DNA from: Gemmatimonadota bacterium
GTDB lineage: Bacteria; Gemmatimonadota; Gemmatimonadetes; Longimicrobiales; Gaopeijiaceae
Length of the DNA: 64,000 nt
Direction: 5' to 3'
Assembly: GCA_029262115.1 (NCBI GenBank)
Contig: JAJCZZ010000021.1
Coordinates: 1-64,000, forward strand
Of the stretch, positions 14,404 to 60,022 are shown piece by piece. Below the pieces are notes generated by a model. It was not told the DNA's origin. It was given only the letters and a program-made list of their open reading frames with translations, and searched no databases. The translations under genes and the position numbers were made by a program. How positions within the stretch are numbered: the first letter of the stretch is position 1; every line of letters starts with the position of its first letter.

Positions 14404-14416
14404 GGCGGTGCGCCCA

Positions 14417-15610: not shown

Positions 15611-15661
15611 CAACGCGGGGTCAGGGGCGGACAGGGTGAGCGCGTCACACCGTGAAGCGCG

Positions 15662-18971: not shown

Positions 18972-19195
18972 CGGCAACTCTCTTCGTTTGTCGATTCCGG
19001 GGATGACGCCGGAGCGGGAACAGGATGACGACGGGAATCTAGTGTGCAGATGCGCGGGTGTCCTGAACGGGCCTCGCGACGCCGCGACCGGTCGCCTTCC
19101 GGGACGGTTCGAACTGCGTCCTTGTCGCCTCCGTCGCTTGATTGAACATTTCATGATATCCCCGCCCCGCTCCGCCCCCGCAGGAACCCCACCCC
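18972..19195. promoter_or_regulatory. divergent intergenic region between neuB and the DUF11 lipoprotein
   Basis: About 220 bases with no gene. On the minus strand TAGATT (19036-19041) within ACTAGATTCC is a candidate -10 for neuB, leaving a leader of roughly 60 bases. On the plus strand an AT-richer patch (ttgattgaacatttcatgat, 19138-19157) stands out from its surroundings and could be the promoter for the lipoprotein gene. Neither has a textbook -35. Confidence 0.35.
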
Positions 19196-41038: not shown

Positions 41039-43009
41039 TTACCCGCACCCCCCCGACTCGCCGGCGACCTCCATGGTCGGCGAGCGAGTCGCACGACCGT
41101 GTTCGGGCATGACCTCCAAAATCACCTTAGGCACAGATCCCGCCCTAGTTAGTTCCCAGGCGCGATGGTACTCCTTGAGTGGAACGGTATTCTTCAAGAG
41201 GCCCTGCACGGAGAGCGAGGCAAGGGCTTCGAGTGCCGCTCGGAAGTCGCGGCTTCCGCTCCCCACAGATCCAACGACCGTCAAATCAGCCGACACAATG
41301 GATTCGAAACTGAACGGCTGGCGCCCATATGGCAGTCCCAAGGCCAACACACAGGTGCCCGGCCGTACCCGTTCCAAAAGTTCGGCCAAGACCGTCGCAT
41401 TTCCAGTAGCCTCAACCACAAATCCCTGCCCACGGTAACCTTCGAGCGATTCAGAAACGGCGATCCTCGACTCTACAGCGTGGGCACGCCGGGTAGCTTG
41501 CTTCTCGGCTATCGTTACTTCGATCCCGCGGGCCCGGAGTAGAATTGCAGCAAGAAATCCGATCGTGCCCCCCCCTACGATCAACGCCTCTCGGGAACTG
41601 CGGGACCAAGGTTCAGATCTGCGTAATCCCTTGAGCACAACTGCGGTGGGTTCGCAAAGGCATGCTCGGAGAAGATCCAACTCGTCCGGGACGACTTGAG
41701 CATATTCCGATCGCGTCAGCAAGAACGGGCCATACCCTCCGTCCATGCCAAAGACACCCATCTCCTTCCGCTTGGTACATGCGATCGCATCGTCCGCCGC
41801 ACAGGCCGAGCAAGTTCCGCACCCCTGGATCGGTTCGATGACGACCCGATCTCCTTCCGCCACATTGGTGACGTTTACACCCAGCGAAGCCACCCGCCCG
41901 GACACTTCGTGGCCCGGCACGATGGGAAAACCCGCTCGGCCGTCCTGAAAATACGCCAGCGCTCCATCCCGGACCTCCAAGTCCGTGCCACAGACTCCGA
42001 CATAAGCGACTTCCACAAGAATTTCGCCGGGCCTCACTGTCGGGATCGTGCGTTCCTCTAGCCTCGCGCGCCCCGGTCCGGTGACGACCACAGCCGAGTA
42101 CCGGCGGTCGAAGAAAAGCTCTTCCCTGGTGCGGGGCGTAGGGGCAGACTGCCCCTCGCCTAGGCCCCTGATCGTCCCGCGGGCCTTCTCATAGCGGAAT
42201 CGTATTACGTCTACGAGACGGTCGGTCGAGACTCTCTCTTTAGGGAAGGCGATGAGGTCCGTCGCTAGGTACTGCAACTCGGCCAATGCGGCGCTCACCC
42301 CCGACGTCCCCGCAAGTCCCATTGCACGCATCGCCAGGGCCTCGCGGTAGTACCGGTGCCGCACCTGCCGCCAGCTCTCACGGTGAATGTGATAGATGGC
42401 TGCGTCGGCCCGATATGTCACCTTCCGTCCACGGCGGAGCCAATGTCGCGCCCACTCGATGTCCTCCAACCCCGTCAAGGCCTCATCGAAGGGGTGGTCC
42501 TCCCAGTCCCGGCGACGGATAGCTGCATTGGCATTGTTGGCGAAGAAGTGAGGAGGCTCTAGAACCTCCGATTTGCCCGGGAACGTCCGTAGAAAGTCCT
42601 GGCGTTCCGCGAATTTGGACTCCTCATTCCCAAGCTGGCGACCGTAGGCCATGGCAACCGAAGGGTCAGCGAAGCTCTCCACCAGATTCGCAAGCCAGTG
42701 CTCGCCGATAGGAACAGTGTGAGCGGACACGATGACCACCACGTCGGCCCGGGATTGCCGCACGCCCACGTTCAAAGAATAGCCGAATGTGAAATCCCGA
42801 GAATCGATCCTCACGATGCGGGCTCCGGCAGCCTCGGCAATTTCACGGGTGCGATCCTGGGATCCGCTATCCACGACCACAACCTCATGATCCACAAGCG
42901 ACTGCCCAGCGATCGCCTCGAGAAGCGCCGGTAGATCGCGCTCCTCATTGAACGTGCGGATCAGAACCGAGGCAAGCGGCCGGATCGACACGTCACCTCC
43001 GATCGCCAT
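41039..43009 (-). CDS. glycosyltransferase family 2 fused to zinc alcohol dehydrogenase
   Basis: A 656-aa fusion. Residues about 12-245 are a GT-A glycosyltransferase of family GT2: SVLIRTFNEERDL, VVVDSGSQDRT at 45-54 with the metal-site Asp, and LEDIEWARHWLRRG at 181-194 as the catalytic/acceptor region. Residues about 303-645 are a medium-chain dehydrogenase: catalytic zinc ligands Cys340 and His367 (PGHE), structural zinc Cys397, Cys400, Cys403 and Cys411, and a Rossmann GGGTIG at 479-484. Both halves look intact. The start is ATG 43009, or GTG 42991. The enzyme may oxidise or reduce a sugar and attach the same or a related sugar, an inference from fusion. Confidence 0.85.
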   Translation of the reverse strand: MAIGGDVSIRPLASVLIRTFNEERDLPALLEAIAGQSLVDHEVVVVDSGSQDRTREIAEAAGARIVRIDSRDFTFGYSLNVGVRQSRADVVVIVSAHTVPIGEHWLANLVESFADPSVAMAYGRQLGNEESKFAERQDFLRTFPGKSEVLEPPHFFANNANAAIRRRDWEDHPFDEALTGLEDIEWARHWLRRGRKVTYRADAAIYHIHRESWRQVRHRYYREALAMRAMGLAGTSGVSAALAELQYLATDLIAFPKERVSTDRLVDVIRFRYEKARGTIRGLGEGQSAPTPRTREELFFDRRYSAVVVTGPGRARLEERTIPTVRPGEILVEVAYVGVCGTDLEVRDGALAYFQDGRAGFPIVPGHEVSGRVASLGVNVTNVAEGDRVVIEPIQGCGTCSACAADDAIACTKRKEMGVFGMDGGYGPFLLTRSEYAQVVPDELDLLRACLCEPTAVVLKGLRRSEPWSRSSREALIVGGGTIGFLAAILLRARGIEVTIAEKQATRRAHAVESRIAVSESLEGYRGQGFVVEATGNATVLAELLERVRPGTCVLALGLPYGRQPFSFESIVSADLTVVGSVGSGSRDFRAALEALASLSVQGLLKNTVPLKEYHRAWELTRAGSVPKVILEVMPEHGRATRSPTMEVAGESGGCG

Positions 43010-43940
43010 CGCGAACGTCCAGGCCTCGCAGCAGGTTCTCAATGGATCTGATGTGGACGTTTTCCCACGCTTTGGGCGACGAATTCGCATTGTGAGGCGC
43101 GAGCAACACGTTGGGCATGTTTCTCAGTGGACTGTCCTGCGGCAATGGCTCGTCCTCAAATACGTCGAGACCCGCGCCGCGAAGACGACCCTCGGCGAGA
43201 GCTTTTACCAACTCCGCCTCGTCGACCACAGGACCGCGGGACGTATTGATGAGCAAAGCCGAGGACTTCATGAGACTCAGACTACGCGCGTCAACCAGGT
43301 GGTGGCTTGAGGGATTTAAGTCCGGATGGAGGGTCACGACATCAGCGCTTGCGAACACTTCGTCAGCCGTAGCTTCGCGGATACCGGGCACGGAAAGCAG
43401 GTCGGGCTCGACGCCCTTGCGGTCGCACAGGAGCGTTGGCATACCGAACGCCATCGCCCGCCGAGCCACGGCTTTCCCTATATCCCCGACCCCGATGATC
43501 CCGAGCGTCTGTTCGGCCAGCGTGTATCCGGGCAATTTCTCCCATCCACCGTTGCGCATGTGGGCAACCGTTTCCGGAAGACGGCGGGCGAACGCGAGGA
43601 GGTACGCGAACACTGAATCAGCCACGGGTTCGGAGAACGCGTTAGGAGTCCGACAGATCACGACTCCATGCGCGGCCGCCGCGGCCACGTCGATGGAGTC
43701 GATCCCCGTTCCCCACTTCGAGATAACCCGGAGATCCTCAGCAGCCTCGAAAACGGCGGACGTAAACCGATCGTCACCGCAGATCACACCATGGACGCCG
43801 GGCATGATTTCGAGGAGCTGCTCCTCTTCCAGGCGTTCCGTGACCGGAGGTACCACCACGGACAGTCCATGCCGCTCGAGTATTCCGCGAAACTCATGGA
43901 TACGGGGCATCATGTACGGCGCTGAAATCATGACACGCAT
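42993..43940 (-). CDS. D-2-hydroxyacid dehydrogenase, SerA-like
   Basis: NAD-dependent dehydrogenase of 315 aa. GVGDIG is the dinucleotide loop; catalytic Arg is in NTSRGPVVDEAEL, Glu in LDVFEDEPLP and His in APHNANSS. It lacks the C-terminal ACT or ASB domains of long SerA proteins, so serine synthesis is not implied. It lies four bases after the KdsB-like gene and overlaps the fusion gene by about 17 bases; context suggests reduction or oxidation at an alpha-keto acid or sugar-acid carbon. It is similar in family to the enzyme at 15662 but clearly diverged. Confidence 0.9.
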   Translation of the reverse strand: MRVMISAPYMMPRIHEFRGILERHGLSVVVPPVTERLEEEQLLEIMPGVHGVICGDDRFTSAVFEAAEDLRVISKWGTGIDSIDVAAAAAHGVVICRTPNAFSEPVADSVFAYLLAFARRLPETVAHMRNGGWEKLPGYTLAEQTLGIIGVGDIGKAVARRAMAFGMPTLLCDRKGVEPDLLSVPGIREATADEVFASADVVTLHPDLNPSSHHLVDARSLSLMKSSALLINTSRGPVVDEAELVKALAEGRLRGAGLDVFEDEPLPQDSPLRNMPNVLLAPHNANSSPKAWENVHIRSIENLLRGLDVRDGDRR

Positions 43941-43944
43941 GCGG

Positions 43945-44676
43945 TCAGGCCCCCGAAGTCATGAGGGCGCGCACGCGTTCGAGATCCTCGGGAGTGTCTA
44001 CAGCCTGCACGTCGACGGCGGTCGGGACCATTAGCACCTCGACGCCATGCTCCAGGAAGCGGAGCATGTCGATGGACTCGGCGCACTCCAGTCGTCCTTC
44101 CGGAAGTGAGGCGAACAAGCGAAGTGCATCAGCACGAAACGGGATGACGCAGACCTGTTTGCCCACTCCCTCTGGCACAACACCGTCCTTCGAGGTGGGA
44201 ATCGGCTGGCGTGACATGTATAACGCCTGCGACCGATCACCGATTACAACCTTTATCGTGTTCACGTCGCGAAGGTCCGGCGTCTCGATCGCGCCCAAGA
44301 GATTCACGCATTGGACCGCAGGATCGGAGAACGGAGCCAACGCCTCGCTGATCATCTCTGGGCGGATCAACGGCTCATCACCCTGCACCATGACCACAAT
44401 ATCAACGTCCGGTAGCGTCTCCGCCGCCTCAGCAATCCGGTCGGACGCCCGCTCGTGAGTGGACGACGTCATTATGACGTGGGCGCCGAATGCCTCGGAT
44501 GCATCCCGAATCTCGTCGTCGCAAGTCGCGATGTACACCTCGTCGAGGTCGGGGCAACAACGCGTCCGCTCCCACACGTGTTGGATCATGGGCAAGCCCC
44601 CAATGGGAACCAATGGCTTGCCGGGGAAGCGACTGGACCCCAGGCGGGCAGGAATGATGGCGATGACTCGTGACAT
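43945..44676 (-). CDS. KdsB-like CMP-sugar synthetase
   Basis: 243-aa nucleotidyltransferase of the 3-deoxy-manno-octulosonate cytidylyltransferase family: IPARLGSSRFPGKPL at the N terminus, HERASDRIAEAAETL and VMVQGDEPLI in the core, and a C-terminal VDTPEDLERVRAL. True KdsB activates Kdo for lipid A, but this gene lies in an accessory glycan locus, and no other Kdo gene (kdsA, kdsC, waaA) is in the window. It more likely activates an unusual ulosonic or other 2-keto acid sugar. Substrate unknown. Confidence 0.88.
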   Translation of the reverse strand: MSRVIAIIPARLGSSRFPGKPLVPIGGLPMIQHVWERTRCCPDLDEVYIATCDDEIRDASEAFGAHVIMTSSTHERASDRIAEAAETLPDVDIVVMVQGDEPLIRPEMISEALAPFSDPAVQCVNLLGAIETPDLRDVNTIKVVIGDRSQALYMSRQPIPTSKDGVVPEGVGKQVCVIPFRADALRLFASLPEGRLECAESIDMLRFLEHGVEVLMVPTAVDVQAVDTPEDLERVRALMTSGA

Positions 44677-44701
44677 GTGCAGTGGACAAGTGGTTCGGTG
44701 A

Positions 44702-45340
44702 TCAGGAAGGCCGGATCAGCACCCGGCACGGAGCTCCGTCGGCGCCCGGAACCAGCAGAGGCAGACATATCAACTCGTAGTCGCCGTCAGATACCTTATT
44801 GAGGTCCAAGCCCTCAACGATATGAATACCGGCCATGAGCAAGGAGGTGTGCACAACCGGCGTTGGGTCGCTAAAGGGCTGGACAGAGAGATAGTCGATC
44901 CCGAGCAGTCGAATACCTCGCCAAATCAACCACCTTGCCCCGGCTTCGGAAAGTCCGATGAAGTCGGCCCGGAATTCCTGAGCGGTCGCGCCCCATGACT
45001 CCCGATTCTTCGTGCGGAGCAAGAGGCGCTCACAGCCATCCGTCACCGCGACGGCGAGGTCATGCGGCTCAATCGCCCCATCGGTGTCGATCGTGGCCAC
45101 ACGGCAGGGGCCCATCAACACGGCAAGGGATAGGGATTCTACACCAGCACCCTCAGACAGGAAGTGAATAGGAGCGTCTACATGGGTGCCGGTGTGCGCC
45201 CCAAGGACTAGCTCGGTCACGTTGACGCCGTCCGGATCGATTCGCTTGGATCGGTATACGCGAGGTTCGGTTTCACCGGGCCAAGTGGTCATCCCCTCCC
45301 GGAGCGGAACCGTTACGTCGATCCATGTGAACGAGCCCAT
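44702..45340 (-). CDS. cyclase-family metal hydrolase (kynurenine formamidase-like)
   Basis: 212-aa member of the cyclase / kynurenine-formamidase family. HTGTHVDAPIHF is the family's HxGTHxDxPxH metal site. LREGMTTWPGE near the start and GIDYLSVQPFS are also typical. Known relatives hydrolyse formamides and cyclic amides. ATG 45340 follows a purine-rich GGAGGAAGCGGAG and overlaps the stop of the orphan gene (TGATG). The function in a glycan locus is unknown; removal of an N-formyl group or opening of a lactone/lactam are speculations. Confidence 0.85.
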   Translation of the reverse strand: MGSFTWIDVTVPLREGMTTWPGETEPRVYRSKRIDPDGVNVTELVLGAHTGTHVDAPIHFLSEGAGVESLSLAVLMGPCRVATIDTDGAIEPHDLAVAVTDGCERLLLRTKNRESWGATAQEFRADFIGLSEAGARWLIWRGIRLLGIDYLSVQPFSDPTPVVHTSLLMAGIHIVEGLDLNKVSDGDYELICLPLLVPGADGAPCRVLIRPS

Positions 45341-45666
45341 CACTCCGCTTCCTCCAAACAACTCGGCGAGCTGTTCTCGACACTTCCGCTCGAGTGAGTG
45401 AGCCACGCGTACTCCAAGTGGCGCTTCCCGTCCTGCAACTGGGCCCGGCCCTGCTCTGGCTCGGCAGTCTGCTTCTTGATGTCGGCCTCGAACTCAGTGG
45501 TCTCGGCCTCGACCTCGTCGTCGGACAGCGACGGGGAACCCTCGTAGATGTCGTGGATGGTAGGGTAGAGCTTCTTTGCTCCGCGCTTGTGCGGGGCACG
45601 GAGAAGGGACTTCAGGGCTACGCATGATCGTTCGAGGGTGTCGGGCCATAGGGAAATGGCAAGCAT
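45340..45666 (-). CDS. orphan hypothetical protein (108 aa)
   Basis: Not recognised. The protein is acidic in the middle (EGSPSLSDDEVEAETTEFEAD), has a basic N-terminal third and a Ser-rich end, with no signal peptide or membrane segment. Its support is positional: its ATG directly follows the stop of the sugar-transferase gene and its stop overlaps the ATG of the cyclase gene, exactly filling the gap in a tightly packed operon. Amino-acid composition is poor for a folded enzyme, so it may be a degenerate gene remnant. Confidence 0.45.
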   Translation of the reverse strand: MLAISLWPDTLERSCVALKSLLRAPHKRGAKKLYPTIHDIYEGSPSLSDDEVEAETTEFEADIKKQTAEPEQGRAQLQDGKRHLEYAWLTHSSGSVENSSPSCLEEAE

Positions 45667-46503
45667 TCAGCTACCTGTCTCCACACCGATTGTTTCGACC
45701 GACTGAATAGTAGAAGAAGGCAACTGATGCAGATCCCTAGCGAGTACAGGACGAGAGGCGCCGGGGGGCGCCGCAGGCTCTAGGGACTGCGAACGGGACG
45801 CGACTGCCCGAAGATTTTCTGTCGCTCCCTGAAGCCGAAGAATACGTGAGACGCCGCTCAACGCTAGGCGTCGCCAGACGACGTTGACTCCGGTCAGCAA
45901 CAAGAGGGACATGTCCGTCCCCAACGTCGCATTCCTCACGTAATGGAGGCCGAGTCGGCTCTTCCACGGCCGGACATATTGATTGTATCCCAGATTCGGA
46001 TCCACTCCCTCGGGAATCGCTTCGGATAAGTCCGAGAAGACCACGGAAGCGAGATCCGTGATCCCCGGCCGGATCGAAATCAAACCGCGCTCCACCTCCG
46101 TGTACCGCGCCACTTCCCTCGGTACGTTAGGGCGGGGTCCAACCAACGACATGTCTCCACAAAGGACGTTCAGGAACTGCGGGAGTTCATCGAGCTTAAG
46201 CGCGCGCAGTGGTCCCGCGCAGGGGAGGAGCCGCGGATCCCCGCTGACGGTCGTGTCGATCCCGCTCTTTGCTGCATCCACGACCATCGTTCTGATCTTG
46301 AATAGCTCGAACGGCCGCCCGCCTCGGCCCACCCGGCGGGACCTGAAGATCGGATCTCGACGGTCGCACAAGAACACAACAGCCGCACAGGCGACGATGA
46401 TGGGCGCGGCGAGAAGCAACGCCAATGCAGACAGAACGATGTCGACGAATCGCTTGAGATTCCCACTTAGATACCGCCGCGATTGATCACGCGCCTCAGT
46501 CAT
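45667..46503 (-). CDS. monotopic phosphoglycosyl transferase (bacterial sugar transferase)
   Basis: Transfers a sugar-1-phosphate from a UDP-sugar to undecaprenyl phosphate, starting lipid-linked glycan assembly. The N-terminal re-entrant membrane helix is at about 18-46 with Pro34 breaking it; FKIRTM at 68-73 and the catalytic Asp105-Glu106 in KLDELPQFLNVL precede GDMSLVGPRP. It is the small PglC/WcaJ-core type. The C terminus (about residues 200-278) extends beyond PglC and is unlike the family. No fused kinase or NAD-binding domain is present. Its neighbours suggest that the first sugar is made or modified by this same locus. Confidence 0.92.
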   Translation of the reverse strand: MTEARDQSRRYLSGNLKRFVDIVLSALALLLAAPIIVACAAVVFLCDRRDPIFRSRRVGRGGRPFELFKIRTMVVDAAKSGIDTTVSGDPRLLPCAGPLRALKLDELPQFLNVLCGDMSLVGPRPNVPREVARYTEVERGLISIRPGITDLASVVFSDLSEAIPEGVDPNLGYNQYVRPWKSRLGLHYVRNATLGTDMSLLLLTGVNVVWRRLALSGVSRILRLQGATENLRAVASRSQSLEPAAPPGASRPVLARDLHQLPSSTIQSVETIGVETGS

Positions 46504-47437
46504 CGAGGACCGCTCCTAGCAGCCGCATTGTGACATCTTCCGGAAGATCCAGAACGGAGCCTTCCGCCGCTTCCGTCAGCTGACGACTCGACTTGATGCC
46601 AACCAGTGGAAGGCAGCGTGGAATCATCTTGCGCGTCCAGGCGATAGCCAGTTGTGCGGGTGATGCATTGAGATCCCGCGCGCAGGCACGTAGGGTCTCC
46701 ATCATCCGCATTCCGCGCCGGAGCCCAGCAGGCGTGAAATGGCGGTAGCGCGGGTCGGATCGCCTGTCATCGGACCCGAACCTCGTCTCGATGTCGTACT
46801 TGCCAGAGAGTAGGCCCTGGGCTAGCACGCCATACGGCATGAACCATCCGCCGAACGCGACAGCCCTGCGCGCCGAGTCTTCATGCTCCCGATTCAGCAG
46901 GCTATACTCCATGGAGTAGGTGCTCAGTCCGGCCCAGATTGACGACGGCACGGACTCCCAGGCAGTGTTGCTGAGTCCATACGCGCGAATGAGCCCCTTA
47001 CTTCGCAGGCGTTCCAAGGCTGCAACCGTGTCATCAAGAGGGGTGACGCCGTCCCAATAGTGAATTTGATAGAGATCGATCCAGTCGGTTCCGAGCCGCT
47101 CTAGCGAGGCCAATAGTGCCACCTCGCACCACTCCGGACTTGAGTCATAGAACACTCCGCCCCGGGCATTGAAGCGGACCCCGAACTTCGTGGAAATCGT
47201 CGCTGAGTCTCGCCCCGATCCCAGAGCCCGACCCAGTCTCGATTCGGAGACGCCGCGCCCATAACAGTCGGCCGTGTCGAACAGCCGGACTCCCAACTCG
47301 ACCGCTTCGGCGATGGCGAGCCGGATTTCCCCGATGTCCACCTCACCCCATTCGTAACCGCCCAACTGTTCACATCCAAAGACGACTGGTAGAGCGGTAG
47401 GCGACCCCTCCCCTAGCAGTGATCCGAGAAAATCCAT
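46496..47437 (-). CDS. aldo/keto reductase
   Basis: NADPH-dependent reductase of 313 aa, TIM-barrel type. The catalytic tetrad is visible: Asp and Tyr in FDTADCYG, Lys in STKFGVR and His in YQIHYWDG. The cofactor end GIKSSRQLTEA is typical. It overlaps the phosphoglycosyl transferase start by eight bases. In glycan loci such enzymes often reduce keto-sugars; a second, more distant aldo/keto reductase lies at 56183. Confidence 0.92.
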   Translation of the reverse strand: MDFLGSLLGEGSPTALPVVFGCEQLGGYEWGEVDIGEIRLAIAEAVELGVRLFDTADCYGRGVSESRLGRALGSGRDSATISTKFGVRFNARGGVFYDSSPEWCEVALLASLERLGTDWIDLYQIHYWDGVTPLDDTVAALERLRSKGLIRAYGLSNTAWESVPSSIWAGLSTYSMEYSLLNREHEDSARRAVAFGGWFMPYGVLAQGLLSGKYDIETRFGSDDRRSDPRYRHFTPAGLRRGMRMMETLRACARDLNASPAQLAIAWTRKMIPRCLPLVGIKSSRQLTEAAEGSVLDLPEDVTMRLLGAVLDD

Positions 47438-47485
47438 AATACCCCTACTTGGCCGCCGTGGGAGTCACCGCCGGTCGTCGTTGGC

Positions 47486-48511
47486 TCACCGCGCGGGGGA
47501 GGCGGCCATCCGCGGCGTGTCTGGCGATTGTAGCCTCAGGCTCCGGACGGCGGCGAGCACCTCACCGGAGTCCGGATAGTAGACTGCCTCAAGCGGCCCG
47601 CTGGTGGGAGCCGGAACATCTTGAAGGGTCACACGCCGGGGCGATGCCTTGAACGCCGTAGGCGGCAACCGCTCAGCCAGCCGGGCGACCACCTCTCCGG
47701 CCAGACCGCAGTTCGTCCACCCGCCGTCCACCGCCACCACCCGACCGGTCTTTCGAACACTCTCGACCAGGGTCTCGGCGTCGAGCGGATTGATGATTCG
47801 GAGGTCAACGACCTCGACGTCGATTCCCTCGCGGGCAGCCTCCTCGGCCGCGTCCATCGCCACCAACACGGAGTGCCCAGCCGCCACCAAAGTTACATCG
47901 GAACCCGTCCGCCTTACGACGGGTCCCTCAAAAATGGCGTCGAGGTTGGGCGTATCCGGCACGTCCGCCTCGAGTTCGTACAGCCAGCGATCGTCAATGT
48001 AGAGCACCGGGTCATCGCACAGAGTGGCCGAGACGAGCAGATCACGCGCGTCGGCCACGGAGGCCGGCATCACGACTCTTAGGCCTGGGATGTGGGCGAA
48101 CCAAGAATGCAGAGCCTGAGAATGTTGTGCCCCCTGCTGCCCCCCGCGATTGATGATCGCCCGCACGACGACCGGCACTGAACCTCGCTGCCCGAACATC
48201 GACGACCACTTGGCAGCCTGAGTTACCACCTGGTCGACCGCAAGGAGCATGAAGTCCATCCGGGGGTGCACGACGATCGGCCGGCTTCCAGCCAGAGCGG
48301 CACCGACAGCAGCACCCGTGGTCGCTTGCTCGGACACCGGCGAATCGAGAACCCGTTCCCGTCCAAACTCAATATCTAGATCCGTCATCGAGCTACCGAC
48401 GTACCATGGGCTCCAGAGGCCCTGCCCGAGGACACATACCTCGGCGTGATTGCGGAGAAGATAGGCGAACCCCTCCCGAATGGCCGTGCCGTACGTCAGG
48501 CGAATAGTCAT
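47486..48511 (-). CDS. TPP-dependent dehydrogenase E1 beta / transketolase C-half-like
   Basis: 341 aa, E1-beta type. TYGTAIREGFAYLL at the start, GAAVGAALAGSRPIV in the pyrimidine-binding domain, and VVDLRIINPLDAETLVESVRKTGRVVAVDGGW in the transketolase C-terminal domain. With the adjacent E1 alpha (ATGA overlap) it forms a complete thiamine-diphosphate heterotetramer. No lipoyl E2 or dihydrolipoamide dehydrogenase gene lies nearby, so oxidative decarboxylation through a multienzyme complex is unlikely as the local role. Confidence 0.9.
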   Translation of the reverse strand: MTIRLTYGTAIREGFAYLLRNHAEVCVLGQGLWSPWYVGSSMTDLDIEFGRERVLDSPVSEQATTGAAVGAALAGSRPIVVHPRMDFMLLAVDQVVTQAAKWSSMFGQRGSVPVVVRAIINRGGQQGAQHSQALHSWFAHIPGLRVVMPASVADARDLLVSATLCDDPVLYIDDRWLYELEADVPDTPNLDAIFEGPVVRRTGSDVTLVAAGHSVLVAMDAAEEAAREGIDVEVVDLRIINPLDAETLVESVRKTGRVVAVDGGWTNCGLAGEVVARLAERLPPTAFKASPRRVTLQDVPAPTSGPLEAVYYPDSGEVLAAVRSLRLQSPDTPRMAASPAR

Positions 48512-49575
48512 GGTGAAGCGGTCGCCCTCTGATCTGAATACAGATACGCCCCGGCGGCGTCGAGGGGCGGGTAGTCTGCCGCCCGAGCTCGATCCAGGGC
48601 CGCCGCCACCGATTTCCTGGTGTCCAGTAGCACCCCGTGCAACTCCGAGTTCGAAACACCGGAGTTCTCAAGGCCACGGCACATGCGCCGCAGCGGATCC
48701 CTGCCCTTCCAAAGGGGGAGATCGCCACTACGCCTGACGCCCACATCGACGTCCTCGCGGTAACCGACGTGCCCCCTCCACCTGTAGGTAACGAGCTCTA
48801 GAAAGGAGGGCCCGTCCCCGGCCCTGGCGCGCTGGACAGCTCGCACCGTGGCGTGATACGTGGCAATGACGTCGTTTCCATCCAACGTCACGGCATCAAT
48901 GCCGTGTGCCTCCGCGTACCGAGCCTGGCGACTCCCTCTTTGTCTGAGGTCGATGTGCAGGTGACTACTGAAGAGGTTGTTCTCGCAGACAAACAGGACG
49001 GGCAACTCGTGCACCGCCGCCAGATTCATCGCCTCCTGAACGACGCCCTCCTCGACAGCACCATCTCCGAAAAAAGAGACAGCGACCCCCGGACTTCCCA
49101 GGAGTCGGGCGGAGAGCGCCGCACCCGCGGCCATCGGAACCGTGGCGCCCACGATCGGCACGGTTCCCACGAGACCCCGGTCAGGGGCCGTGAGGTGCAT
49201 TGATCCGCCCATCCCTTTAGAGCATCCATCGATTCGTCCCAAGATCTCGGCAAGCAAACCGAAGACGTCCCCGCCGAGACCGAGGTAGTGGCCGTGGGAC
49301 CTGTGGGCGCCGAATACCTTATCGATTGATCCGTCCAGTGCGGCGGTGACCCCTACCGCGCACGCCTCCTGGCCGACCGCCAAGTGGCATGGGCACACCG
49401 CCTCTCCCGCTTCTACAAGATCACCAATCACCTCTTCAGCCACCCGGACGAGCGTCATCCGGCGCAAGAACTCCAGAGCGAGCCCTGCCGAGACACTGGA
49501 CACGTCGATCGGGCTGTGCAGCGCGGAGGGGTCCGCCAACTCCCGCAGGTTCATCGGTAGGATCGGTGTCGCCAT
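48508..49575 (-). CDS. TPP-dependent dehydrogenase E1 alpha subunit-like
   Basis: 355 aa, E1-alpha type. HRSHGHYLGLG near 91-100, GGSMHL near 123, and the thiamine-diphosphate/magnesium motif GDGAVEEG at 170-177 with Asn199-Asn200 about 28 residues on. It overlaps the E1 beta start as ATGA and heads the minus-strand region C operon. In sugar biosynthesis such pairs can transfer two-carbon units: AviB1/AviB2 of avilamycin are the known precedent. Confidence 0.9.
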   Translation of the reverse strand: MATPILPMNLRELADPSALHSPIDVSSVSAGLALEFLRRMTLVRVAEEVIGDLVEAGEAVCPCHLAVGQEACAVGVTAALDGSIDKVFGAHRSHGHYLGLGGDVFGLLAEILGRIDGCSKGMGGSMHLTAPDRGLVGTVPIVGATVPMAAGAALSARLLGSPGVAVSFFGDGAVEEGVVQEAMNLAAVHELPVLFVCENNLFSSHLHIDLRQRGSRQARYAEAHGIDAVTLDGNDVIATYHATVRAVQRARAGDGPSFLELVTYRWRGHVGYREDVDVGVRRSGDLPLWKGRDPLRRMCRGLENSGVSNSELHGVLLDTRKSVAAALDRARAADYPPLDAAGAYLYSDQRATASP

Positions 49576-50341: not shown

Positions 50342-50944
50342 TCACGGCAAGAGCCCCGACGACCGGAACTCGCGGGCAAGTTCGGCAGCGCCCACGAAGC
50401 GTAGCGCACTCCACCCCGCAGCTCGAGCCCGTGCGACGTTCTCGGGTCGATCATCCACCAGAAGCAAATCTCTCGACTCGGCACCAATACGCTTCGCGGT
50501 AGCCTCGAAGCATCCAGCGTCGGACTTGAGGAGACCGATCTCGTGCGAGCGCACGACACGGCGGGCGTAGCGATCCAGATCCACGAATCGGCGCTCGACT
50601 GCCGTTTGCCACTCGTTTGTGTCGGTAAGCACTACCACAGCCCGGCGATCGAGGCGGCTCAGCAAGTCTAGTACCTGTGGAACACACCCTGTAATGTGCG
50701 CGTCGTGCGCGGCCTTCAAAACCTCGTCAGTCAGCGACGGCAACCCAAGCCGGGTTCGCAACGAACCGCAGAACACGGCGGCAGTGGTCCGCCCTCGAGA
50801 GAACTGCGCGAAGTCCTCTCCCTGGAAGAAGCGGTTGGCCGATTCCGGAGAGACCCCTAGCCCGATCAAACGATGCACGGTGTACCGTTGGTCAGCGGTC
50901 AGCAAGACATTGCCGATGTCGAAGACAGTGATCACCACGCTCAT
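50342..50944 (-). CDS. HAD-superfamily hydrolase-like protein
   Basis: 200 aa with a HAD fold: motif I FDIGNVLL has the nucleophile Asp8 but Gly instead of the second Asp that serves as acid/base in phosphatases; motif II is VVLTDTN; motif III Lys is in GLLKSDAG; motif IV is LLLVDDRPENVARA. This DxGN pattern is common in YihX-like HAD-IA proteins. It is likely a sugar-phosphate or nucleotide phosphatase serving the nonulosonate pathway, with the missing Asp making phosphatase activity uncertain. Confidence 0.85.
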   Translation of the reverse strand: MSVVITVFDIGNVLLTADQRYTVHRLIGLGVSPESANRFFQGEDFAQFSRGRTTAAVFCGSLRTRLGLPSLTDEVLKAAHDAHITGCVPQVLDLLSRLDRRAVVVLTDTNEWQTAVERRFVDLDRYARRVVRSHEIGLLKSDAGCFEATAKRIGAESRDLLLVDDRPENVARARAAGWSALRFVGAAELAREFRSSGLLP

Positions 50945-51215: not shown

Positions 51216-51905
51216 ATGAGGGTGGAGGTCGTTGGCGCTCCGCCGCCCCTGTCCCCATCAGTTCGCGACTCTGTTTCGCGTTTATGGGAGTCCGCCAAAC
51301 AGGCCAACCCCTCGATCACAGACGGTCGTGTGTTGTGCTACCGAGATCACGTGATCCTGGCGGGCGCGGTGACTGTCCGATGCTTCGTTACCCGCTATTC
51401 GCGGTTCGTGGCACGGCTCGCCGACCCGACGCTAGAGATCTCGGCCGACCCCCTCGGGGTATGCGGTGCGATCCGCGACAGAAACGGTTGGACGCTAGTC
51501 GGGCGCCGTGGCAAGGCCACGACCGAGTACTCCGGCCACTTCGAATTCGTCCCCGCGGGAAGCGTGACCCCGCCATCGGCTCGCAACGGTCGCATCGACT
51601 TCGTAGCACAACTCATGCTCGAACTTGAGGAGGAGGTCGGGATCGGCAGAGAGTTCGTCACCGGAGTGACGCCTGTCGCTCTGATTTTGGACCCTGAGGA
51701 CCGTGTGTACAATGTATTTTGCGACATCGGCTTCGGCGGAGACCTACGTGCGTTCGAACGTGCGGCGGGTTGGCGTGGGACGGACGAGTACGACGATGTC
51801 CGGGCGATACCGTGGGACAGAGTTGAGGACTTCATTCGCAACGAACGCTGCGTGCCCAGCATGAGGTTGGGCCTATCACTCATTTCGGCAAGGAACCGAA
51901 CATGA
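51216..51905 (+). CDS. Nudix-hydrolase-like protein
   Basis: 229 aa. The stretch FEFVPAGSV followed by LMLELEEEVGIG resembles the Nudix box GX5EX7REUXEEXGU, with the box Arg apparently replaced and the spacing longer than usual, so it may be a degenerate or variant site. RVYNVFCDIGF and AIPWDRVEDFI look like normal Nudix strands and the C-terminal helix. AGAAGGA lies seven bases before ATG 51216. Its stop overlaps the NeuB-type gene as ATGA, tying it to nonulosonate synthesis, perhaps as a nucleotide-sugar pyrophosphatase. The N-terminal ~90 residues are unassigned. Confidence 0.72.
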   Translation: MRVEVVGAPPPLSPSVRDSVSRLWESAKQANPSITDGRVLCYRDHVILAGAVTVRCFVTRYSRFVARLADPTLEISADPLGVCGAIRDRNGWTLVGRRGKATTEYSGHFEFVPAGSVTPPSARNGRIDFVAQLMLELEEEVGIGREFVTGVTPVALILDPEDRVYNVFCDIGFGGDLRAFERAAGWRGTDEYDDVRAIPWDRVEDFIRNERCVPSMRLGLSLISARNRT

Positions 51906-52972
51906 AGTCGTTCAGCATCGCGGGTCGCCAAGTCGGTGGCAGCGCGCCCACCTATTTTATCGCGGACATTGCGGCGAACCACGACGGAGAGCTCGCGCGC
52001 GCCAAGACGCTCATTCACCTGGCCAAGGAGGCCGGTGCCGACGCCGCCAAGTTCCAACATTTCCGAGCCGAGCACATTGTTAGCAAGGAAGGCTTTGAGG
52101 CTCTTGGGTCCCGACTGTCCCACCAGTCGAAGTGGCAGAAGTCGGTCTACGAGGTCTACCAGGACGCGTCCGTCCCCTTCAACTGGACGCCGGTGCTGAA
52201 AGAAGAGTGCGACGAGGCAGGAATTCACTTCTTCACGTCACCGTATGATCTCGACATGGTCGACCTGGTGGACCCGTTCGTTCCTGCCTACAAGATCGGA
52301 TCCGGTGACGTGAACTGGCTCGCCATCGTAAGAAAGATCGCTGAAAAAGGAAAACCGGTCATTCTCGCGACTGGTGCCGCAACGATGGCGCAAGTGGATC
52401 GAGCCGTGGCGACGGTGCTGGAGGCGAATCCGCAGCTGCTCGTTATGCAGTGCAACACCAATTATACCGCAGACGACCGCGCGAACTTGCCACACATCAA
52501 TCTCGCGGTTCTCGACACCTATCGGCGCAGGTTCGACGGTATCCTCCTGGGACTATCTGATCATACGCGGAGCCTCCCGGTGGTTCTCGGAGCCGTCGCC
52601 AAGGGCGCCAGGGCCGTGGAGCGTCACTTCACCGACGATCGTAAGAGGGAAGGCCCGGACCACAAGTTTGCGATGGATCCGGAGGGATTTCAGGAGATGG
52701 TCGAGTCCGTCCGGGAACTTGAAGTGGCGCTTGGAGACGGAGTGAAGAAGGTAGAGGCCAACGAAGCGAATACGGTTGTGATTCAACAGAGGTGCATACG
52801 TGCCAACTGCGAACTTTCTCCTGGCACGACGGTGTCGGAAGACATGTTGGGATTTCAGCGGCCGGCACCGAGTGGATCGTTCGAGCCGTGGCAACGCAGT
52901 GAAGTCGTGGGCAGGACGCTGACGCGGCCGATCGGTCAGGGGCAACACTTTTCCCCGGCCCACTTCGAGTGA
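51902..52972 (+). CDS. N-acetylneuraminate synthase-family enzyme (second copy)
   Basis: 356-aa PEP-condensing synthase of the NeuB/PseI/SpsE group: YFIADIAANHDGELARAKTLIHLAKEAGADAAKFQ at the start, KIGSGDVNWL in the barrel core, LLGLSDHTRSL, and ERHFTDDRKREGPDHKFAMDP near the end of the barrel. The last ~60 residues (IRANCELSPGTTVSEDML) match an antifreeze-like SAF domain. It differs throughout from the synthase at 17940 (for example IADIAANHDG versus IAEVAQAHDG), so the window probably makes two nonulosonic acids. Confidence 0.92.
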   Translation: MKSFSIAGRQVGGSAPTYFIADIAANHDGELARAKTLIHLAKEAGADAAKFQHFRAEHIVSKEGFEALGSRLSHQSKWQKSVYEVYQDASVPFNWTPVLKEECDEAGIHFFTSPYDLDMVDLVDPFVPAYKIGSGDVNWLAIVRKIAEKGKPVILATGAATMAQVDRAVATVLEANPQLLVMQCNTNYTADDRANLPHINLAVLDTYRRRFDGILLGLSDHTRSLPVVLGAVAKGARAVERHFTDDRKREGPDHKFAMDPEGFQEMVESVRELEVALGDGVKKVEANEANTVVIQQRCIRANCELSPGTTVSEDMLGFQRPAPSGSFEPWQRSEVVGRTLTRPIGQGQHFSPAHFE

Positions 52973-53378
52973 TGTGCTCACTCACCCCACACGGATACAC
53001 GGCGGGAACCCGGTCAGATGAACCCTGATTTAATTCGGCTGGACCCCAACTGGGCGTGCCAGTAGCTTTCGGTTCTCTTCCGCTCGATCCGCCTTCGCTC
53101 GATCCGCCTTAAAGGTACGATGGACACGCGCTGATAATGCCCCACAATACCGCCACGGCGCCACGGCGCTTGGCCAAGCAGATCGCGGCCACGGTGCGTT
53201 ACTCGTGTTGCGAAGCGCGGGCCGGGAGTGCTCGAGTTTCGATGCCTCATCCGGGAGACTTTGGGCCCGCTTCGCCGCACCGCATGTTGGTGACCGTGCG
53301 GATCTCTGACGCATTTGTACCGACCCTGGGACTCCGCAGCGATATGCGCGCAGCCCGTGAGGCCCCGCTAACGCTCCG
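52973..53378. other. 406-bp non-coding gap before the ABC transporter
   Basis: No gene is supported here; short open frames on both strands have no recognisable sequence. The gap contains one exact 15-bp tandem duplication (53081-53110) and an eight-base doublet cgccacgg near 53152. It probably holds the promoter of the transporter gene, but no clear hexamers were found. Confidence 0.5.
53081..53110. repeat. exact 15-bp tandem duplication
   Basis: cgctcgatccgcctt occurs twice head to tail, at 53081-53095 and 53096-53110, in the gap between the synthase and ABC transporter genes. It could be a recent slippage event or a paired protein-binding site. Confidence 0.85.
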
Positions 53379-55133
53379 TTGACCACCCTCACTCAACTCT
53401 GGACACTGCTGTCCTCCGATCAGAAGCGGTCGGCCGTCAGCCTATTGGCACTGATGCTCGTCAGCATGGTTCTCGAGACGCTGAGCGTGGGCGCCGTGAT
53501 CCCTGCCCTCGCGGTCATGACCCAGGAGAACCTGGCCGAGCGGTATCAATTCGCCGGCCCTGTCCTCGAGGCGATCGGTAATCCTAGCCGCGAGCGGCTG
53601 ATCGTCCTCGGCATGCTGCTGATGGTCTGTCTCTATGCTGTCAAGTCGGTGTTTCTCGGCGTCCTAGCGTGGTTTCAGGCCCGCCTAGTCGCACACATCG
53701 AGGCGGACGTTTCCGTGCGCCTGTACGCCGGGTACCTCCATCAGCCGTACGCCTTCCACCTCCGCAGAAACTCCGCGCAACTTCTGACCTACGTGGGCCA
53801 GGTAAGCCAATTCGCCGGCGTCGTGACAGAAGGATCGAAGCTGTTCGCCGAGTCGTTCGTCATCGCCGGGATAGCCGCTCTCCTTCTCTGGGTAGAGCCG
53901 CTGGGAGCGGTGGTCGTAGTCGGGACGCTCGGTGTTGCGAGTTGGGCGTTTCACGGTCTCACGCGGCGTCGCATCCTCCACTGGGGTGAAGCGCGCCTGG
54001 CTCACAACGAGTCATCGATTCAACAACTCCAGCAAGGGTTGGGCGGCGTTAAGGAGGTGCAGCTCCTAGGGAGGGAAGCCGAGTTCGTGGCACAATTCCG
54101 GGATCACGTTATCCCGTTTGCGAACGCCAACCAGCATCAGACGACGCTGCGGGCGTTGCCCAAACTCTGGTTGGAGTTGCTGGCGGTCGGGGGACTGGCC
54201 GCGCTCGTGGCCGTCATGGTCGCCAAGGGACGCCCTCTCGACACGCTCCTCCCAACCGTGGGCCTGTTCGCCGCGGCGGCGTTTCGCCTGATGCCGTCCG
54301 CGAATCGGGTGCTGGGCGCCGTCCAGGGCATCCGCTATCTCGTTCCCGTTGTGGGTACGTTGTACTCGGAGGTGCAGGAGGTCGAGCCATGGACGCCCCG
54401 TTCGTCGGCTCGCCCGGTGCACCTCGCTAGCCAAATCACCCTCAAGGATATCGGCTTTCGGTACGGCGGCGCGGATCAACCGGCCCTGAGTGGTGTCAAC
54501 CTGACGATCACCCGGGGGCAAGCCGTGGGCTTCGTCGGACGAAGTGGGTCAGGAAAGACGACGCTGATCGACATCGTGCTGGGCCTGCTTCGCCCCGACG
54601 CCGGAGGGGTGCGGGTCGACGGTCACGATATCTGGGACAACATCCGCGGCTGGCAGGACCAGATCGGCTATGTACCTCAGTCCATCTTCTTGACGGACGA
54701 GTCGATCCGGAACAACATCGCGTTTGGCTTGCCCGCAGACACTATTGACGACGCGGCCGTGGGGCGGGCGGTCGAAGCCGCCCAGTTGGGCGAATTTGTT
54801 TCGCAACTGCCGTCGAAGCTCGAGACGGTGGTAGGCGAACGAGGCGTACGCCTGTCCGGTGGGCAACGCCAGCGCATTGGGATCGCACGGGCCCTCTACC
54901 ACGACCCAGACGTGTTGGTCCTTGATGAAGCGACCAGTGCGCTCGACACGACCACTGAACAGGACGTCATGGCCGCCGTGCGGGACCTTCACGGCAAGAA
55001 GACCATCCTGATTGTTGCCCATCGGTTGAGCACCGTGGACTATTGCGACCGGGTCTTCCGCCTGGACCAAGGGTGTCTGGTACCCGGCGGAACGATCGAA
55101 CCCGGCGCCCCCTCGGCTCTCCGCCTGCGGTAG
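53379..55133 (+). CDS. ABC exporter/flippase, PglK/MsbA type
   Basis: 584-aa half-transporter with a fused permease and ATPase. Six membrane helices occupy about residues 15-320. The nucleotide-binding domain has Walker A GRSGSGKTT near 387, signature LSGGQRQRIGIARAL near 493 and Walker B VLVLDEATSALD near 511. Position in a glycan operon with pseB suggests a lipid-linked oligosaccharide flippase like PglK of Campylobacter, though lipid or lipopolysaccharide export is also possible. The start codon is TTG at 53379, with no strong ribosome site. Confidence 0.9.
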   Translation: MTTLTQLWTLLSSDQKRSAVSLLALMLVSMVLETLSVGAVIPALAVMTQENLAERYQFAGPVLEAIGNPSRERLIVLGMLLMVCLYAVKSVFLGVLAWFQARLVAHIEADVSVRLYAGYLHQPYAFHLRRNSAQLLTYVGQVSQFAGVVTEGSKLFAESFVIAGIAALLLWVEPLGAVVVVGTLGVASWAFHGLTRRRILHWGEARLAHNESSIQQLQQGLGGVKEVQLLGREAEFVAQFRDHVIPFANANQHQTTLRALPKLWLELLAVGGLAALVAVMVAKGRPLDTLLPTVGLFAAAAFRLMPSANRVLGAVQGIRYLVPVVGTLYSEVQEVEPWTPRSSARPVHLASQITLKDIGFRYGGADQPALSGVNLTITRGQAVGFVGRSGSGKTTLIDIVLGLLRPDAGGVRVDGHDIWDNIRGWQDQIGYVPQSIFLTDESIRNNIAFGLPADTIDDAAVGRAVEAAQLGEFVSQLPSKLETVVGERGVRLSGGQRQRIGIARALYHDPDVLVLDEATSALDTTTEQDVMAAVRDLHGKKTILIVAHRLSTVDYCDRVFRLDQGCLVPGGTIEPGAPSALRLR

Positions 55134-57060
<1,927 letters not shown>

Positions 57061-57064
<4 letters not shown>

Positions 57065-59088
57065 CCGTCGTAGCGATCGTCCAAGCGAGGATGGAATCGT
57101 CCAGATTCCCGGGGAAGGTACTTCACGAGGTCGGGGGCCGGCCGTTGATCGCGATCCTTCTGGAGCGCCTCCAGCGTGCTGCCAGCGTGGACGCCATCGT
57201 GGTCGCGACCCCGGCAACGCCGGCCAATCGGGAGTTGGGCGCCAGGACGAAGGCCGTGGGGCACCGGGTCTACCGCGGAAGCGAGGATGACGTGCTTGAC
57301 CGCTACTATCGAGCGGCGGTCAAGGTGGGCGCGGACACAGTTGTGCGAATCACCGGAGACTGTCCCCTTGTCGACCCGGAGGTCGTTGACGCGGTTGTGG
57401 CCCGCTTCTTCGACTCGGGGGCGGACTACGCGTCCAACACCATCCCGCCTACCTTTCCCGACGGGCTCGACACCGAAGTGTTCACCTTTAACGCCCTTGA
57501 GCGATCGTGGCGGGAAGCGACCGATCCGGTCCACCGCGAGCACGTGACGCTGTACATGAAGGAGTCGGGCGCGTTCAGTCTCGAGAATGTGAGGCACGAA
57601 ATCGATTGGTCAGCGGAGCGGTGGACCGTGGATCAACCCGAAGACCTCGAGGTGATTCGACGGGTGATCGAGCACTTCGCGCCGGACACCGACTTTTCCT
57701 GGCGATGCATCTTGGACCTGCGGGTCCGTCATCCGGACTGGTTCACATTCAACGATCACTTAGCACGGGACGAAGGCCTTCATATGAGTCAGGGACAGAA
57801 GCTCTGGAGGCGGGCGAAAGCCGTTATACCTGGCGGGAACATGCTGCTGTCCAAGCGCGCGGAAATGTTCCTACCGGACCAATGGCCGGCCTACTACAAC
57901 CGGGCCGCAGGATGCACCGTGTGGGATCTAGACGAACGCCCCTTCGTCGACATGAGTCTCATGGGCATCGGCACCAACACCCTGGGTTACGCGCACCCGG
58001 AGGTCGACGAAGCTGCCCAACGTGCAATATCACTGGGCAACATGTCCACATTGAACTGCCCCGAGGAAGTGCGGCTCGCCGAGCGTTTGGTTGAGTTGCA
58101 CCCCTGGAGCGATATGGTGCGGCTGGCCCGGACCGGCGGGGAGGCCAACGCCATCGCTATCCGCATCGGGAGAGCCGCGTCCGGACGCGACAAGGTCGCG
58201 TTCTGTGGATATCACGGCTGGCACGACTGGTATCTTTCTGCCAACCTCGGCGACTCGGCCAACCTCGCCGGGCACCTTCTTCCCGGGCTCGATCCGCTGG
58301 GCGTGCCCTCGGCGCTTCGGGGGACGGCTATCCCGTTCTCTTACAACAACTTTGACCAGCTGAAGAAGATCGTCGAGGCCGGTGATGTGGGGGTTATCAA
58401 GATGGAGGTTTCGCGGAATATCGAGCCAGAACCCGGCTTCCTTAAGGAGGTCCGCGCGCTCGCCAGTAGGCACAAAATCGTGCTCGTCTTCGACGAGTGC
58501 TCATCCGGCTTCAGACAGAGTTTCGGCGGCCTGCACAAGGCCTACGGCGTCGAGCCGGACCTTGCGGTGTTCGGCAAGACGCTGGGGAACGGATATGCCA
58601 TCACAGCCGTAATCGGTACCCGTGCCGTCATGGACTCCGTCCAGGATACATTCATCAGCAGCACGTTTTGGACGGAGAGAATCGGACCCTCGGCGGCGCT
58701 CGCCACCCTTGCCGTCATGAAGCGCGAGAGGTCCTGGGAGGTCATCACCGAAATCGGCCGGAGGGTGGGACATCGTTGGTCGGAGTTGGCTACCCGGCAC
58801 GGCCTCACACTCACCCTCAGCGGACTTCCAGCCATGCTTAGCTTCGCGATCCGATCCGAACGCATGCGGGAGTATCGGACGCTGATCACCCAGGAGATGC
58901 TAAAGGCGGGGTATCTCGCGACCAACACTCTATACGCCTGCACCCAGCACAGCGACTCCGTCGTCGATAGGTACTTCGACGCCCTCGATCCGATTTTTTC
59001 CACCATCAAGGAGTGCGAGGATGGACTCGACGTGACGACGCTCCTCGAGGGTCCGCTCTGTCACGTCGGATTCCGGCGGCTCAATTGA
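57061..59088 (+). CDS. SpsF-like cytidylyltransferase fused to class III aminotransferase
   Basis: 675-aa two-domain protein. Residues about 1-240 are a CMP-sugar-synthetase-like domain (VQARMESSRFPGKVL, RITGDCPLVDPE, REHVTLYM). Residues about 243-675 are a fold-type I, class III aminotransferase of the glutamate-1-semialdehyde type: ARTGGEANAIAIRIGRA binds PLP phosphate, Asp478 in FDECSSGFR binds the pyridine nitrogen, and Lys506 in FGKTLGNG forms the aldimine. Start TTG 57061 overlaps the reductase stop as TTGA; GTG 57049 is the alternative. It may aminate a sugar and activate the finished acid with CTP. Confidence 0.88.
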
Positions 59089-60002
59089 AGAACTCGACCG
59101 ATACGCCCCGTACCGACCGCGTCTTGGTCACCGGGGCAACTGGATTGGTCGGGTGTACACTCGTCCCCCATTTGCGTCGCGCCGGATACGACGTGGTCGC
59201 CAGCGGCCGTTCCGGGGCAGACGTCTCGATCGATCTGACGCTCCGCGTTCCGACCCTCCGTGCGCTCGACGAGGTCCGACCCGACGTCGTGGTCAACCTT
59301 GCTGCGAACACGAGTGTGGATGGATGCGAACGCGAACCGCATCAGGCCTTTATGGGGAACGTCCACGTCGTGGAGAATATCGCGGAGTGGATTCGGAGCC
59401 GCGCGCCGGCCACACACCTCATCCAGATTTCGACCGACCAGGTCTACGACGGGCCGGGGCCGCATCCCGAAGGGACGGTGTGCATCGTAAACACATACGC
59501 ATTCTCCAAGTATGCTGGAGAACTCGCCGCCGCAAACGTGGACGCAACCATCCTTCGGACAAACCTGTTCGGCCGGAGCCGGTGCGCACATCGGACCACC
59601 ATCAGCGACTGGATCGCCCGGTCGATCAGCGCGGGTGACTCGATCACGGTCTTTGAGGATGTCCTCTTCAGTCCGGTGAGCCTGGAGGGGTTGGCGCAGG
59701 CGATCACGCTGGCGGTCGAGCGCAGGACTCCCGGCCTGTTCAACGTCGGAGCGAGGGAGGGCATGAGCAAGGCGGAGTTCGCGTTCGCCCTCGCAGCGAC
59801 CCTGGAATTATCGACGGAAGGCATACGTGTCGGCACAACGCAGGACGTTTCCCTGGTCGCGCGCCGTCCGTCGGACATGCGCATGGATTGTGCACGATTT
59901 GAAGAGGCCTTTGGCGTTCGAATGCCAGCTCTCCGCGACGAGATTGAAGCGGTCGTGGAGGAGTACGTCGAGCACTCCATTCCACGGGCCCCGGGCACCT
60001 GA
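59085..60002 (+). CDS. RmlD-like NAD(P)-dependent sugar reductase
   Basis: 305-aa SDR of the dTDP-4-dehydrorhamnose reductase type: GATGLVGCTL binds NADPH, ISTDQVYDG is the active-site strand, and NTYAFSKYAGE contains the YxxxK pair. SPVSLEGLAQAITLAVERRTPGLFNVG is typical of RmlD relatives. The start is TTG 59085, overlapping the preceding stop as TTGA. No rmlA, rmlB or rmlC is nearby, so rhamnose is not implied; it likely reduces another keto-sugar. Confidence 0.87.
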   Translation: MKNSTDTPRTDRVLVTGATGLVGCTLVPHLRRAGYDVVASGRSGADVSIDLTLRVPTLRALDEVRPDVVVNLAANTSVDGCEREPHQAFMGNVHVVENIAEWIRSRAPATHLIQISTDQVYDGPGPHPEGTVCIVNTYAFSKYAGELAAANVDATILRTNLFGRSRCAHRTTISDWIARSISAGDSITVFEDVLFSPVSLEGLAQAITLAVERRTPGLFNVGAREGMSKAEFAFALAATLELSTEGIRVGTTQDVSLVARRPSDMRMDCARFEEAFGVRMPALRDEIEAVVEEYVEHSIPRAPGT

Positions 60003-60022
60003 GGCACGGAGCACCAACGCCG

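Follow-up and report, generated by a model that had tools for sequence, protein, structure and literature searches.

Bases 1-64000 of an 82.5-kb contig from a Gemmatimonadota bacterium (JAJCZZ010000021.1), here called the window, carry nine packed minus-strand genes at 41039-49575, among them an E1-alpha/beta pair, a phosphoglycosyl transferase (PGT), and a KdsB-like nucleotidyltransferase. These genes are best read as two recurrent units and not as one pathway. The region is probably part of a surface-polysaccharide locus in which unit A would make a C2-branched sugar and initiate a glycan with it, while unit B would make and transfer a second, cytidylyl-activated residue. All nine open reading frames (ORFs) were confirmed, with neighbors overlapping or separated by short gaps, and Pfam or NCBIfam families were clear for eight of the nine, ORF108 being the exception. 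The packing, the coordinates, the families, and the glycan context all agreed with a preliminary description of this DNA, which had proposed a single route from the E1 product to a CMP-activated sugar acid.

Unit A and its recurrence in other genomes

Unit A consists of four genes:

48508..49575, minus strand: E1-alpha-like subunit, the predicted alpha half of a thiamine diphosphate (ThDP) carboligase (E1_dh, E=5e-54)
47486..48511, minus strand: E1-beta-like subunit, transketolase-type (Transket_pyr and Transketolase_C)
46496..47437, minus strand: aldo/keto reductase (AKR), predicted to reduce the branch ketone (Aldo_ket_red, E=1e-51)
45667..46503, minus strand: PglC-like small PGT (Bac_transf)

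An E1-alpha scan of 84,980 species genomes yielded 80 loci, the neighbors of which were then clustered; most of the loci compared come from metagenome-assembled genomes (MAGs), with flanks of at most 10 kb. About 24 loci encode close E1-alpha relatives (42-61% identical), and these are spread over Gemmatimonadota, Planctomycetota, Verrucomicrobiota, Bacteroidota, several proteobacterial groups, Bdellovibrionota, Margulisiibacteriota, SAR11, and Prochlorococcus, with the nearest E1 pair in a Gemmatimonadetes MAG (L014). One of the loci with the module, L025, belongs to a named species, Peristeroidobacter agariperforans (strain KA5-B), and has the DegT variant. The ThDP motif (GDG...NN) is invariant within this E1-alpha clade, and the window E1-beta is 52-73% identical to the E1-beta proteins of the clade. 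Of the 25 clade loci, counting the window, 22 have a PGT no more than 5 kb away, and of the 57 other E1 loci none does (Fisher p = 4.5e-17, which is indicative only, since the loci are related and the PGT and AKR queries were taken from clade loci). Neither a PGT nor an AKR of these groups was found in those 57 loci. The three clade loci without a nearby PGT are L019 and L036, on contigs of about 3 kb, and Prochlorococcus, where the PGT is on the same contig as E1, beside the module DegT gene. In one further locus (L015), a transposase-like extra ORF, read by eye, lies between E1-beta and the PGT at 3332-4081.

The third gene of the unit varied in a regular way. AKR was present in 8 of the 25 clade loci and the module DegT in 16, and both occurred together in one locus only (L034), so that they are nearly exclusive. 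The module DegT proteins form one subfamily, about 48-90% identical, outside of which the DegT proteins encoded elsewhere in module loci fall. Elsewhere, the AKR variant often comes with a methyltransferase, of which a 64% identical relative lies on the window's own contig, at about 81.2-82.0 kb.

The association also held when it was approached from the PGT, albeit in small numbers: among 349 Pseudomonadota genomes, the PGT subfamily occurred in five (six loci) and the E1 clade in three, all of which were among the five, with E1 and PGT 2-3 kb apart. In each of the PGT loci without E1 (L224, L225, and L226), a two-gene (split) transketolase, recognized by Pfam, directly adjoins the PGT. Its partner is a DegT of the module subfamily in L224 and an AKR in L225, and L226 is a 3.2-kb contig, too short to show one. 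Two other PGT loci, L166 and L170, lie on contigs too short to be informative.

The module has a ThDP enzyme slot, filled by the E1 pair or a split transketolase, and a ketone-processing slot, filled by AKR or DegT. That two types of ThDP enzyme are interchangeable suggests carboligation rather than oxidative decarboxylation, and that two types of ketone-using enzyme are interchangeable suggests a product that carries a ketone.

Phylogeny and proposed chemistry of unit A

Under a PMSF mixture model, the 24 E1-alpha rows formed a clade with a support of 100/100 outside the pyruvate dehydrogenase (PDH) and acetoin groups, and the clade was recovered with a support of 99 in a 111-row FastTree. 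It stood apart from the Rhizobium PDH E1 and from the E2-linked E1 genes of the same genome (C79 and C59), with which the E1 of a pyruvate or branched-chain dehydrogenase would be expected to group; such a grouping had been raised in the preliminary description and did not occur. The clade is nested in a larger one (35 rows, 100/99), some other members of which adjoin DegT genes. Sister E1 pairs beside DegT and without the module PGT were seen on an Azospirillum oryzae plasmid (L142), which also carries kinase/SIS heptose-type genes, and in two Omnitrophota loci (L038 and L039). The linear Streptomyces albogriseolus plasmid pSALBX2 (L232) encodes an E1-alpha of this wider glycan-type clade at 12001-12801, near P450-, acyl-CoA dehydrogenase-, and TrpA-like genes as read by eye, and this protein is possibly a natural-product carboligase. 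A sample of actinomycete genomes searched for AviB-like proteins returned mostly other E1s, and viral contigs returned one distant E1.

It is highly improbable that chance alone put the E1 pair of an ordinary dehydrogenase (for pyruvate, branched-chain keto acids, or acetoin) in a glycan locus. The top NCBIfam matches are PDH E1 subunits, but all of them fall below the curated cut-offs, and, besides the separate clade and the close association with the PGT, the residues R84, R122, and R175 of E1-beta are invariant in the clade and in its wider-clade glycan relatives and rare or absent in PDH-type rows. No free E2 is left for the pair, in line with the preliminary description: the genome has six E1_dh genes and two E2 genes, both of which adjoin other E1 genes. 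An assignment to PDH or the branched-chain dehydrogenases was rejected by the tree and by this placement of the E2 genes. Instead, E1-alpha and E1-beta stand side by side without E2 or E3, as do the sugar-branching carboligases of the E2-less alpha-keto-acid-dehydrogenase type (aKADH2), and the sugar or glycan context and the reductase or aminotransferase typical of those enzymes were found across the clade loci.

The window PGT has the catalytic Asp-Glu and the PRP motif, both invariant, and has no large N-terminal membrane domain, which places it among the PglC-type small monotopic PGTs; PglC is also its nearest solved structure. The PGTs of 20 of 21 E1 loci lie on one side of a 100/98 branch, together with two Gemmatimonadota PGTs for which no E1 is known, and 16 of them, including that of the window, form a 100/100 clade. 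In profile searches of the host genomes, most E1-linked PGTs scored about 276-416 bits and most other PGTs less than 150, with some intermediate, a gap that arises partly by construction, since the profile was built from these same E1-linked PGTs.

The slot pattern and the published logic of branched antibiotic sugars lead us to infer that a sugar with a 1-hydroxyethyl branch is made by the window and passed on to the PGT. The E1 pair, as an aKADH2 carboligase, would use ThDP to decarboxylate pyruvate, or else a similar keto acid, and attach the resulting two-carbon acetyl unit to a keto-sugar that is probably bound to a nucleotide. Reduction of this branch ketone by the AKR would then yield a 1-hydroxyethyl group, whereas the DegT enzyme of sister loci would aminate the ketone. 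Finally, the PglC-like PGT would transfer the branched sugar 1-phosphate to polyprenyl phosphate and so start the chain. The preliminary description had the reductases make a keto-sugar ahead of E1; for the AKR, a step that follows E1 and has the branch ketone as its substrate is more likely. Its proposal that the E1 pair adds a two-carbon branch fared better: comparative evidence, namely the pair's own clade and its replacement by a split transketolase, gives the predicted two-carbon step good support, as does precedent.

The published precedents come from antibiotic pathways. AviB1/AviB2 and Pau11/Pau12 are E1-type pairs proposed to add an acetyl branch from pyruvate, and KbDH-alpha/beta, from the kibdelomycin pathway, couples pyruvate with ketones in vitro. 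The branch ketone is reduced in paulomycin (by Pau7, an AKR) and transaminated in kibdelomycin. Like unit A, these are two-gene E1-alpha/beta enzymes in sugar pathways with a ketone reductase or a transamination; unlike them, unit A lies in surface-glycan loci of many phyla beside a dedicated PGT; the likeness drawn here is one of gene set. Split-gene transketolases have been proposed to add hydroxyacetyl branches in miharamycin and amipurimycin, and 13 such enzymes are listed in a review, all from Streptomycetes. The enzymes that replace E1 in three module loci are likewise encoded by two genes, but they belong to Pseudomonadota glycan loci outside the window. Within lipopolysaccharide (LPS), the YerE/YerF yersiniose pathway resembles the proposal in that a pyruvate-derived C2 branch is placed on a keto-sugar and its ketone is then reduced. 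However, YerE, a flavoenzyme made of one chain, is of the decarboxylase/acetolactate-synthase type, a ThDP group other than that of the E1 pair.

Two other products were considered for unit A. The ThDP enzyme might extend the sugar chain end-on at an aldehyde acceptor, giving a higher-carbon sugar and not a branch. Transketolases do naturally lengthen aldoses in this manner, and the alternation of E1 and split transketolase fits extension as well as branching, but the published E1-type sugar enzymes use ring ketones and no recurring aldehyde-forming enzyme was seen in the module neighbor clusters, so that we regard end-on extension as unlikely. We regard as very unlikely that unit A makes an N-acylated bacillosamine-like sugar, in which PglF and DegT would give a 4-amino sugar and E1-alpha/beta would supply the acyl group in place of PglD. 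The bacillosamine pathway (PglF, PglE, PglD, and PglC) shares a 4,6-dehydratase, a DegT aminotransferase, and a PglC-type PGT with the DegT variant of the module, several loci have the order DegT-E1A-E1B-PGT-PglF, and the PGT is closest to PglC. However, the module has a ThDP pair where that pathway has an acetyltransferase, and about one-third of the loci have an AKR in place of DegT, so that no amine would be available for acylation. Additionally, the split transketolase that substitutes for E1 transfers ketol units and not acyl groups, and the unit A module encodes neither an E2 nor an electron acceptor.

Unit B and the single-pathway alternative

The remaining genes of the run are as follows:

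43945..44676, minus strand: predicted KdsB/KpsU-like CMP-ulosonate synthetase (CTP_transf_3; over the PRK13368 cut-off)
42993..43940, minus strand: D-2-hydroxyacid dehydrogenase (2-HADH; 2-Hacid_dh/2-Hacid_dh_C)
41039..43090, minus strand: GT2 glycosyltransferase fused to a zinc-type dehydrogenase (MDR; Pfam GT2 and ADH_N/Glu_dehyd_C), probably starting at about 43009
44702..45340, minus strand: cyclase/kynurenine-formamidase-like hydrolase (PF04199), placement in unit A or unit B uncertain
45340..45666, minus strand: ORF108, no Pfam or NCBIfam match
49710-c.50261, minus strand: GNAT acetyltransferase (Acetyltransf_3), unit membership uncertain
50342-50944, minus strand: HAD-type hydrolase (PF00702), unit membership uncertain

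The last two extend the same-strand run upstream of E1-alpha to 11 operon-like genes, and no relatives of either were found in the E1-clade loci.

The first three genes constitute unit B, whose proposed role is to make and transfer the second residue, which would be cytidylyl-activated and is probably an ulosonic acid. The window KdsB scored 291.6 bits against PRK13368 (cut-off, 255), missed the equivalog cut-offs of TIGR00466 and PRK05450.1-1, and has a CMP-Kdo synthetase entry (1gq9) as its nearest structure. It is the second copy in the genome, where a housekeeping-looking kdsA-pyrG-kdsB set lies on contig C39. A 2-HADH is nearby in four of its five best relatives in Gemmatimonadota. At the threshold used, six relatives of the GT2 domain were found in the plasmid collection. 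The four from Alphaproteobacteria each lie within about 5 kb of a cytidylyltransferase and a 2-HADH (the latter 35-37% identical to that of the window), which directly adjoin the GT2 in three of them, and the two from cyanobacteria have no such neighbors. KdsB, HADH, and GT2 thus plausibly act together on a cytidylyl-activated acid, as judged from gene neighborhoods. No second example of the GT2-MDR fusion was found, no place on a plasmid covering 80% of it and none among 58 relatives.

The acid itself would not follow from the loci of the KdsB relatives. In the same phylum, five loci (L144-L148) hold a KpsU-like KdsB with varying subsets of an HpcH/HpaI aldolase, a GmhA-like SIS protein, HAD, Gfo/Idh, 2-HADH, and an AroB-related cyclase (over the TIGR04425 cut-off at loci of this type), a set that resembles the Kdo pathway with an aldolase in the place of KdsA. 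The aldolase, SIS, Gfo/Idh, and AroB-related genes are absent from the window operon, and the relation of the upstream HAD gene to those loci is uncertain; given these absences, the acid made in the window is not deducible from them. Compared with the capsule Kdo pathway, which has a KpsU-type CMP-Kdo synthetase, the cluster has no recognized KdsA, KdsC, or KdsD, and 2-HADH and GT2 accompany its KdsB.

The cyclase probably starts at 45340, overlapping the ORF108 stop. It scored 170.1 bits against the arylformamidase family TIGR03035 (KynB), below the cut-off of 223.05, although its nearest solved structures are kynurenine formamidases. It was tried and rejected as the anchor of a conserved neighborhood: none of the window genes adjoin the 29 homologues that match it best in the phylum. 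The cyclase was likewise absent from the E1-clade loci, and, the window and the best-homologue loci aside, two weak matches were obtained, both in loci outside the E1 clade.

These distributions bear on the proposal of a single nine-gene pathway, which would oxidize or reduce the E1 product to a sugar acid, activate it with CMP, and transfer it. The tight same-strand packing with overlaps speaks for it, as does the association of KdsB, HADH, and GT2 elsewhere. However, KdsB with HADH and GT2 with HADH recur without E1, E1 was not seen in unit B loci, and relatives of KdsB, HADH, GT2, and MDR in the E1-clade loci amount to two weak single matches. Units A and B were together in no other locus examined, and the nine-gene pathway was rejected as a recurrent unit because the full set, whose recurrence the preliminary description had itself offered as a check, is absent from those loci. 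Unit A also has a likely carrier step of its own in the PGT. Known relatives of this PGT use UDP-sugars and not CMP-sugars, which counts against a CMP-activated unit A product. The chain from E1 to acid to CMP is therefore not supported by the comparison of loci, and we consider a single nine-gene pathway quite unlikely.

Several points weigh against the two-unit reading. Gene families, clades, the unit A association, the AKR/DegT and E1/split-transketolase alternations, and the unit B triad were computed, but every chemical step, the substrate and the product, and the order of AKR, E1, and PGT are what we infer from them. The operon itself holds no gene for forming a 4-keto-sugar; mere candidates for this role are a PglF/PseB-like gene at 55188 and, near 72 kb of the contig, genes resembling those for CDP-glucose dehydratase. 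The PGTs of L014, L024, L033, and L034 belong to a neighboring subgroup and that of L030 is unrelated, the E1-alpha tree was built without the antibiotic enzymes AviB1/2, Pau11/12, and KbDH, and the branching role of split transketolases is an unproven proposal in the literature. For unit B, the cytidylyltransferases of the similar plasmid triads are PseF-like and not KdsB-like.

Neighboring glycan genes and wider meaning

The locus is surrounded by other polysaccharide genes, including two sialic-acid-type sets. On the minus strand, 13528-19277 encodes PseF/NeuA-like, NeuC (over the TIGR03568 cut-off), and NeuB proteins; between the latter two lies another 2-hydroxyacid dehydrogenase (15662-16702), which recalls the KdsB-HADH pairing. 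On the plus strand, 51902-62774 holds a second nonulosonic-type set with NeuB, an ABC transporter, a PseB-like dehydratase, an AKR, and RmlD-like, cytidylyltransferase, Gfo/Idh, and DegT-like genes; one of its cytidylyltransferases is fused to a class-III (GSA-aminomutase-like) aminotransferase (57049-59088), and another is present in the same set. Farther away, a zinc-type dehydrogenase fused to a Gfo/Idh/MocA oxidoreductase (7440-9698, minus strand) adjoins a glucuronyl C5-epimerase-like gene and two asparagine-synthase-like genes.

More tentatively, and with somewhat less than even confidence, we suggest that unit A may represent a widespread, undescribed kind of glycan, found from SAR11 and Prochlorococcus to Gemmatimonadota, whose first residue would be C2-branched (1-hydroxyethyl, 1-aminoethyl, or dihydroxyethyl). 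Either type of ThDP carboligase (E1 or split transketolase) would build this residue, AKR or DegT would complete it, and a dedicated PGT subfamily would recognize it. Our literature search found no relevant paper on E1 or transketolase genes in O-antigen or PGT loci; some of the enzymes may have been listed earlier in the survey of Krug et al. (2024). So far, C2-branching by E1-type or split-transketolase enzymes has been described for secondary metabolites, mostly actinomycete antibiotics, and branching in LPS has been credited to YerE-type enzymes. If unit A does branch sugars, then branched sugars would be generally used to build surface glycans, those of abundant marine bacteria among them, with a PGT specialized for initiating chains with such sugars. 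E1 or split transketolase, AKR or DegT, and the PGT subfamily would together provide a marker set for such glycans, and the enzymes would be a new source of carboligases for the synthesis of tertiary alcohols.

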